This document shows positions 16,480 to 18,318 of a DNA stretch of 64,000 nucleotides, piece after piece. This DNA is from an uncultured Acidobacteriia bacterium. Its GTDB lineage: Bacteria; Acidobacteriota; Terriglobia; Bryobacterales; Bryobacteraceae. The first letter of the stretch is position 1, and each line of letters starts with the position of its first letter. The stretch spans positions 1 to 64,000 of the forward strand of contig CAIQWJ010000018.1 in NCBI GenBank assembly GCA_903875575.1, read 5' to 3'. The notes below the pieces were generated by a model. That model had not been told where the DNA came from and made no database searches. It was given only the letters and a program-made list of their open reading frames with translations. Position numbers and translations under genes: made by a program.

Positions 16480-16917
16480 CTAGGCCGAGAGCAGTTGTAC
16501 GAAGCGATTTCGGCTGCGCGGTTTGACCAGATCGGCCAGAGTGTGTTGTTCGAGTTCGTTCAGGAACGCGGCGAGGGCGGCGTCCAGGATCGTTTTTAGT
16601 TCGCACACCGGCACGATCGGACAGGTATTGTTGGCGATGTCGTGGCACTCTACCAGGCGGAACGATGCTTCGGAGGCCCGGACAACCTCGCCCAGGCGGA
16701 TGGACTCCGGCGGTTTGGACAACTTCACGCCACCAGAGCGGCCAAGCATTACATCTACGAAACCCGCTTCATGCAGAGTCTGGACCACCCGCACCAGATG
16801 GTTCTTTGAGATACCGTACGCATCGCTGATCTCGCGGGAACTCACGAGTCGATCGGGAAAGTGGGCAAGGTACAGGAGGACCCGCATCGCGTAGTCGGTG
16901 TGGACTGTGAGTTGCAT
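16480..16917 (-). CDS. nsrR: Rrf2-family NO-sensing repressor NsrR
   Basis: A 145-aa regulator with an N-terminal winged helix (LTVHTDYAMRVLLYLA, SKNHLVRVVQTL) and three cysteines C91, C99 and C105 in VECHDIANNTCPIVPVCEL, the usual NsrR arrangement for a [4Fe-4S] cluster destroyed by NO. The tail FLNELEQHTLADLV also matches NsrR. It lies 9 nt after the reductase gene, third in the operon behind the haemoglobin, so it probably represses its own operon through the palindrome upstream of the haemoglobin start. IscR or RirA are less likely from the cysteine spacing. Confidence 0.88.
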   Translation of the reverse strand: MQLTVHTDYAMRVLLYLAHFPDRLVSSREISDAYGISKNHLVRVVQTLHEAGFVDVMLGRSGGVKLSKPPESIRLGEVVRASEASFRLVECHDIANNTCPIVPVCELKTILDAALAAFLNELEQHTLADLVKPRSRNRFVQLLSA

Positions 16918-16926
16918 ATGCTGAGC

Positions 16927-17901
16927 TTAGCGAACCGGTGCTTCCACGAATTCGTCTGCGTAGATATCGCGACTGGCCATTCCGGCCAGGAACAGTTTCT
17001 TCCGGAGCCGGCGAACGATGGAGGGATCGCCGCAGATGAAACCGCGCCAACCGGCCAGCTTCGGGAGGTCGGCTGCAATCGCTTGATCGAGCGTGCCGCT
17101 CCTGATGCCGTCCGTTGCCTCGTCGTTTTCGAGTACCACGGGGTGGTAGCGAAAGTTGGGATATGCGCTCTCAAGCTGGTTCAGTTCGGCCCGACAGTAC
17201 AGGCCGGCTTTTCTTAGCGCCCCATGATACAGCGAGATTGGCCCTGTGTGGCCCTGGTGCAGGGCGTCGCGGCAGATTCCAAGAAGTGGGGCGAGGCCGG
17301 TACCTGTGCCCGCGAGGAGAAACGGTTGTTGCGGGTTGCCGAGGGTGTAAAAGCAATTGCCCGCCGGTCCGCGAATGCTGACGGACTCGTTTTCGCGGGC
17401 TTGGTTGAATAGCCAACCGCTCATCTGTCCGCGTTCGGTGCGCCGGACGTGCAATTCCAGCGTGCCGTCAACGGGCAGGCTGGCGAGTGAATAGCTGCGA
17501 GCGAGGCCATCCGGGCGGAGCAGCGTGACGTACTGGCCGGCGCGGTAATCGAACGGCTCCGTGGGACGCAGCCGCAACCGAAGAACGGTGGGCGTCAAAT
17601 GTTCTAAAGACTCGATGGTTGCTTTCAGTTCCAGGCCGCCGGCTGGTTCGATGACCATGTCCTGATTGGGCAGGCAGACACACGAGAGAAAATAACCCTG
17701 CTCGATGAGGGTGGACTTGAGTCCCTTTTGGGAAGTTTCAGGAAGAGGATCAGGATGGTGGGCTGAGCGCAGCAGGCAGGATTGGCAGGCCCCGGCACGA
17801 CAGGAGTTGGGGACTTCAACGCCGTGGCGAAGTAATGTTTCCAAAACAGATTCTCCCGGCGCCGCTTCGCAGGCAGCGCCGGAGTAGGTCAACAGAGGCA
17901 A
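16927..17901 (-). CDS. [2Fe-2S]-FAD-NAD(P)H oxidoreductase
   Basis: Cytoplasmic electron-transfer reductase. An N-terminal plant-type ferredoxin domain has C34, C39 and C42 in CRAGACQSC and a fourth ligand in FLSCVC. FAD-binding RSYSLAS and the NAD(P) segment GTGTGLAPLLG with CGDP follow. The order ferredoxin-FAD-NAD is that of phenol hydroxylase and benzoate dioxygenase reductases. Located directly behind a truncated haemoglobin and before nsrR, it is best read as the haem reductase of a split NO dioxygenase. The start codon is TTG, 4 nt after the haemoglobin stop. Confidence 0.9.
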   Translation of the reverse strand: MPLLTYSGAACEAAPGESVLETLLRHGVEVPNSCRAGACQSCLLRSAHHPDPLPETSQKGLKSTLIEQGYFLSCVCLPNQDMVIEPAGGLELKATIESLEHLTPTVLRLRLRPTEPFDYRAGQYVTLLRPDGLARSYSLASLPVDGTLELHVRRTERGQMSGWLFNQARENESVSIRGPAGNCFYTLGNPQQPFLLAGTGTGLAPLLGICRDALHQGHTGPISLYHGALRKAGLYCRAELNQLESAYPNFRYHPVVLENDEATDGIRSGTLDQAIAADLPKLAGWRGFICGDPSIVRRLRKKLFLAGMASRDIYADEFVEAPVR

Positions 17902-17905
17902 TGGA

Positions 17906-18271
17906 CTAACGTCCCAGAACGTCGTTTCTGGTGGATTCGGCGATGGCCAGAACCTGATCGATGAGGGGTTGGGCGACGCCCAGTTCTTTCAACGTGTCGC
18001 TCAGGTTGCCGGCCACGGCGTCGAAATGGGCATCATTGAGACCACGGGCAACCAGATGCGCGTGGCCCTTACGCATATCGAGACCTGTGTAGTTGTGGGG
18101 ACCGCCGAAGGCCATGGTCAGAAAGGCTTTTTGCTTGCCGATCTGTTTGTCCATATCAACGCCTTCGAAGAATTGGCTGATACGGTCGTCAGTCAGGACC
18201 TAGCGGTAGAAAATGTCGACGGCGGCGTCGACAGCGGGCTGTCCGCCCAGTTGTTCGTAGAGGGAATTCAT
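17906..18271 (-). pseudogene. Group I truncated haemoglobin interrupted by in-frame TAG
   Basis: Read from ATG 18271, the frame gives MNSLYEQLGGQPAVDAAVDI, FYR, then TAG at 18202-18200, then VLTDDRISQFFEGVD and the rest of a normal trHbN of about 121 residues. Tyr B10 sits in the FY just before the stop, and the proximal histidine is in KGHAHLVARGLNDAHF. No other disruption is seen: the frame is intact on both sides, and an AAG-to-TAG change would explain it. Internal ATG 18154 would give an 82-residue product lacking helices A and B. Reductase and nsrR follow. It could be a recent nonsense mutation, a sequencing error or read-through. Confidence 0.88.
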
Positions 18272-18293
18272 CGTTGAGAGGCTCCGATAGATA

Positions 18294-18318
18294 AATGTTG
18301 TATCTAAGATGCAACGTT
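18294..18318. promoter_or_regulatory. Probable NsrR operator
   Basis: A 25-bp imperfect palindrome centred on 18306: left arm aatgttgtatct, right arm agatgcaacgtt, with 10 of 12 pairs matching. The agatgca half resembles the known NsrR half-site. It lies 23-47 bp upstream of the haemoglobin ATG, where a repressor would block the promoter of the haemoglobin-reductase-nsrR operon. The palindrome is seen directly; binding by the encoded NsrR is inferred. Confidence 0.65.

Follow-up and report, generated by a model that had tools for sequence, protein, structure and literature searches.

A truncated-haemoglobin gene with one in-frame TAG in an uncultured Acidobacteriia bacterium: probably a recent nonsense mutation, possibly an assembly error

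Introduction

The gene arrangement considered here has a described counterpart in Legionella pneumophila, for which the relevant part of a review (PMC3820574) describes an NsrR-controlled operon of glbN and a ferredoxin reductase; the same part relates that such reductases have been proposed as electron donors of globins. As to interrupted genes, the sections of Belinky et al. (2021; PMC7918605) drawn upon here describe in-frame stop codons as widespread in bacterial genes and as persisting briefly, on the scale of polymorphisms, with dN/dS < 1 in the genes which carry them. According to the same sections, a substantial fraction of raw cases is expected to be artefactual, and many such genes are held not to be pseudogenes, read-through being frequent, which favours tolerance of the stop (PMC7918605). 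A narrow literature search found no paper on a truncated-haemoglobin gene broken by a premature stop.

We analysed such a gene in a stretch of 64,000 nucleotides (the window) from the draft genome of an uncultured Acidobacteriia bacterium, whose closest named relatives likewise point to an acidobacterium near Bryobacterales. Its interruption looks like ordinary recent gene breakage or assembly error and not like a new decoding trick. New here are the observations that the gene cluster around this globin looks acquired, and that the genome holds two other truncated globins.

Results

Read on the minus strand, positions 17906-18271 of the window translate into 23 sense codons, a TAG, 97 more sense codons and then the terminating TAG. 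The translation, a match to the Pfam family Bac_globin and an intact orthologue (locus L012) mark this as the frame of a group I truncated haemoglobin (trHbN-like) with one internal stop. The internal TAG is codon 24 (18200-18202, minus strand), where a sequence-only reading had placed it, but it does not directly follow the residues FY as that reading had it: FYR precedes the stop, and one residue, an arginine, separates it from Tyr22, which we take to be the B10 tyrosine. The 97-residue piece after the stop matches PF01152 (Bac_globin) with E 4.4e-11 and 43.4 bits over profile positions 24-119, while the 23-residue piece before it matches positions 1-20 (E 0.019, 15.6 bits) and, alone, falls below the cut-off of 21. 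When the genome is scanned with PF01152 at this cut-off, the window globin is recovered as a single match of 69.5 bits over profile positions 1-118, with '1 TAG' inside; since this match spans the stop, the flanking pieces are parts of one gene, and the earlier description of an otherwise intact trHbN frame is upheld.

The frame is thus not uninterrupted, and the gene is a group I truncated haemoglobin by descent. Its placement was examined through L012, which is 89% identical to the window globin over the 96 residues after the stop. Among solved structures the top matches of the L012 globin are cyanoglobins and other group 1 chains, HbO being reached only at E 8.7e-05. By this sequence comparison, with the intact orthologue as proxy, the window globin belongs to group 1 and not to group 2 or 3. 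On the opposite strand, an open reading frame of 102 residues (17969-18277, plus strand) crosses the stop region; coding DNA rich in G+C often has such frames, and this one requires no function.

Whether relatives share the stop is an immediate concern, and an orthologue comparison had been proposed along with the original reading. We compared 81 loci at codon 24, of which 80 had a globin match; as seven loci had been fetched twice and L122 and L124 are the same match, these represent 72 distinct loci. Codon 24 is a sense codon in all 80 (72 distinct), a set which extends to distant paralogues of about 29% identity, where the position of codon 24 is approximate. The 59 relatives of at least 58% identity are free of stops up to residue 110 of the frame, and the globin is uninterrupted in the two nearest relatives found, L012 and L013. 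Among the relatives compared, drawn from collections with one genome per species, the stop is private to this genome.

Apart from the stop, the globin frame looks to be under purifying selection. Measured against L012 and L013, whose globins share 89% and 84% identity with the window copy after the stop, the window branch shows a dS of 0.58 and a dN of 0.041. Its omega is 0.065 (bootstrap median; 0.014-0.279), close to the 0.058 (0.013-0.272) of the L012 branch, these values deriving from 1000 resamplings with branch dS below 0.05 discarded, and being rough at pairwise dS above 1. The window copy keeps the conserved residue in each of the 51 columns that reach at least 90% conservation among the 59 relatives (codon 24 excluded), in agreement with the earlier claim that the downstream haem-pocket residues are preserved. 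Tyr22 is present in the window copy and in 58 of the 59 relatives, the same number as keep Met40. Where L012 and L013 are identical to each other, the window copy departs from them at three positions. Because omega resembles that of the L012 branch, any unselected time would amount to no more than about a quarter of the window branch. A gene long without function would show more changes, and the stop is therefore either young or unreal.

This selection signal is compatible with a young mutation, an assembly error or a tolerated stop alike. The probable explanation, in our view and with appreciable room for doubt, is that a truncated-haemoglobin gene which used to work has recently acquired a nonsense mutation. 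Its main rival, possible although on balance unlikely, is a base-call or consensus error, for instance from mixed strains or a position of low coverage, with the gene intact in the organism. An error in a single codon would suffice, the rest of the frame resembles a working gene, and the draft assembly comprises 110 contigs and has an estimated contamination of 1.13%; against this, substitution errors are rare in assembled consensus sequence and the other genes of the cluster are open. A codon-usage scan of the contig (187,111 bases) for stop-interrupted genes returned 14 candidates without the window globin among them and, because it missed the globin itself, is too weak to yield a rate of error or decay. 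The window contains seven of these candidates, and for five of them both sides of the stop were checked against Pfam. None of the five could be shown to be a broken gene: in two the sides match different families, and in three at least one side matches no family.

Tolerance of the stop depends on how TAG is decoded in this genome. Of 117 long open reading frames on the contig (at least 200 codons, largely non-overlapping, some perhaps not genes), 37 end in TAG, 40 in TAA, 39 in TGA and one at the contig end. Release factor RF1 (prfA) is present without inner stops (522 bits against a cut-off of 423). An amber-suppressor tRNA, which the sequence-only reading had proposed looking for, did not turn up: no CTA anticodon occurs among 41 tRNA matches in the genome, a list which is incomplete (it is without tRNA-Ile GAT, for example), and a suppressor tRNA may lie inside an assembly gap of the draft. 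Since RF1 is present, TAG terminates reading frames and no tRNA reading TAG was found, TAG is a normal stop here; on these same observations we rejected a code change. Folding of the 100 bases past the stop gives no clear sign of a stimulatory RNA structure either (z -1.64, with an equally good fold in 12 of 200 shuffles).

Programmed recoding of the TAG as a regulated switch, by a suppressor tRNA, pyrrolysine or a changed code, has nothing in its favour besides a single stop in a conserved gene. RF1, the use of TAG as a terminator and the absence of the stop from all 72 distinct related loci compared stand against it, and we regard it as scarcely credible. Only slightly less remote, in our estimation, is the proposal that the amber codon is a real and fixed leaky brake on a newly acquired NO-detoxification cluster, whereby weak read-through of TAG would yield very low amounts of globin while reductase and regulator are made fully.

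A stop that simply leaks, or a restart at Met40, giving a little globin or an 82-residue fragment, is less far-fetched and still improbable. The frame from Met40 is open to the end (17906-18154, minus strand, in the list of open reading frames), a purine-rich stretch lies shortly 5' of Met40, and the survey cited above argues, in the sections considered, that many bacterial in-frame stops are partly read through (PMC7918605). However, RF1 is present, the tRNA matches include no CTA anticodon, and the fold past the stop does not clearly stand out. The conservation of Met40 is that of a protein residue, so that a second role is unnecessary, and a fragment begun there would be without the globin start and without Tyr B10; a restart product is possible but unlikely, and we rejected restart as the main account. 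The three options offered by the sequence-only reading (a very recent mutation, a base-call error or a tolerated stop) are accordingly narrowed: the first two fit all findings, whereas read-through and restart are disfavoured by RF1, TAG use, the tRNAs, the relatives and Tyr B10.

The globin is followed, after a gap of four bases on the same strand, by a [2Fe-2S] ferredoxin-FAD/NAD reductase gene (16927-17901, minus strand; Pfam Fer2, FAD_binding_6 and NAD_binding_1), which is open and is a same-strand neighbour in L012 and L013 as well. Its start codon (17899-17901) is TTG in the window and ATG in L012 and L013. Third in order is an open gene for an Rrf2-family regulator, NsrR- or RirA-like (16480-16917, minus strand; Pfam Rrf2, 119.9 bits). 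Reductase and nsrR had both been called intact in the earlier reading; both are indeed open, but the name nsrR, to judge by sequence scores, is a guess, as the NCBIfam models for NsrR (130 bits, cut-off 182) and RirA (132, cut-off 193) both score below threshold. L012 and L013 show this same order and strand of globin, reductase and Rrf2 gene; among the 72 distinct loci, a reductase and an Rrf2 gene both lie downstream on the globin strand in 13. Many other loci have the Rrf2 gene on the opposite strand, or no such neighbour in the fetched DNA, which is short for several of them.

Upstream of the globin lies an imperfect palindrome, GTTGCATCTTAGATACAAC (18297-18315, minus strand), which we propose as a candidate Rrf2-type operator. 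Similar sites occur in L012 and L013, with one mismatch and at about the same distance 5' of the globin, and the pattern is matched in full in L031, L036 and L037. Two mismatches or fewer were found in 12 of 75 upstream regions (second copies counted, window excluded) compared with 0.9% of 1500 simple base shuffles, and three or more in 63 of the 75; the test is weak, the pattern having been drawn up from the window, L012 and L013, which therefore do not count as independent.

The affinities of the cluster run contrary to those of RF1. For RF1, the window genome is 76-78% identical to three genus mates and 73% to the L012 genome, the L013 genome offering a distant paralogue only. For the globin, identity to the window copy is 89% in L012 and 68-76% in the close genus-mate copies; for the reductase, it is 68% in L012 and 49-53% in genus mates. 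A reductase tree of 17 hand-chosen rows joins the window, L012 and L013 with support of 100/99, apart from six genus mates, with 93/93 at the genus-mate fork and 87/87 at the adjacent fork. The globin gene is also patchy: among 18 genus mates searched, eight are without a match and two have distant matches only. Since the cluster (16480-18271, minus strand) is nearer to two Bryobacterales MAGs, L012 and L013, than to genus mates, contrary to RF1, these sequence comparisons suggest that it was horizontally acquired within the Bryobacterales. Old paralogues lost in parallel may also explain the same affinities.

Two further truncated globins occur in the genome (L001:1501-1836 and L003:1501-1812), without inner stops and not close to the window globin. 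A flavohaemoglobin was considered as a backup and rejected: no match in the genome exceeds the cut-off of the Hmp model, and the three weak matches are confined to the reductase part of Hmp, one of them being the window reductase.

Discussion

Taking a recent nonsense mutation as the preferred reading, we envisage the following course. The globin, formerly working, would have headed the cluster of globin, reductase and Rrf2 gene, and was probably an NO dioxygenase, with the reductase as its likely electron donor; family membership and gene neighbours are what point to these roles. A single nonsense mutation would lately have struck the globin gene and, the stop presumably being present in cells, translation would most likely end after 23 residues, leaving no haem-binding globin while reductase and regulator remain open. 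The loss may have been tolerated under weak NO stress or through cover by the other globins.

The main value of this case is one of caution concerning single-stop genes in draft genomes, which are most often young or unreal. Should the stop be real, the globin of a globin-reductase pair was lost first, which raises the matter of the role of the reductase alone. It is also modestly interesting, with regard to how NO-stress responses evolve, that the cluster has probably passed between lineages of the Bryobacterales.

Set beside known systems, the protein encoded by the intact orthologue is a familiar one. The L012 globin resembles the cyanoglobins (PDB 1s69, 2hz2, 1mwb), matching one of them with E 4.7e-38 over residues 1-115, and also HbN (PDB 1idr; E 1e-21), whereas the window copy differs from all of these in its stop after residue 23. 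As in the Legionella glbN operon, to the extent that the part of the review considered describes it (PMC3820574), the globin gene precedes that of a ferredoxin-type reductase, and an Rrf2-family gene is close by; here, however, the Rrf2 gene is third on the same strand, its identity as NsrR is unproven, and the globin is interrupted. The gene also resembles the cases of Belinky et al., as set out in the sections consulted, in combining a single in-frame stop with a signature of purifying selection, but the stops which they retained are common to at least two species, while that of the window is found in one genome only (PMC7918605).
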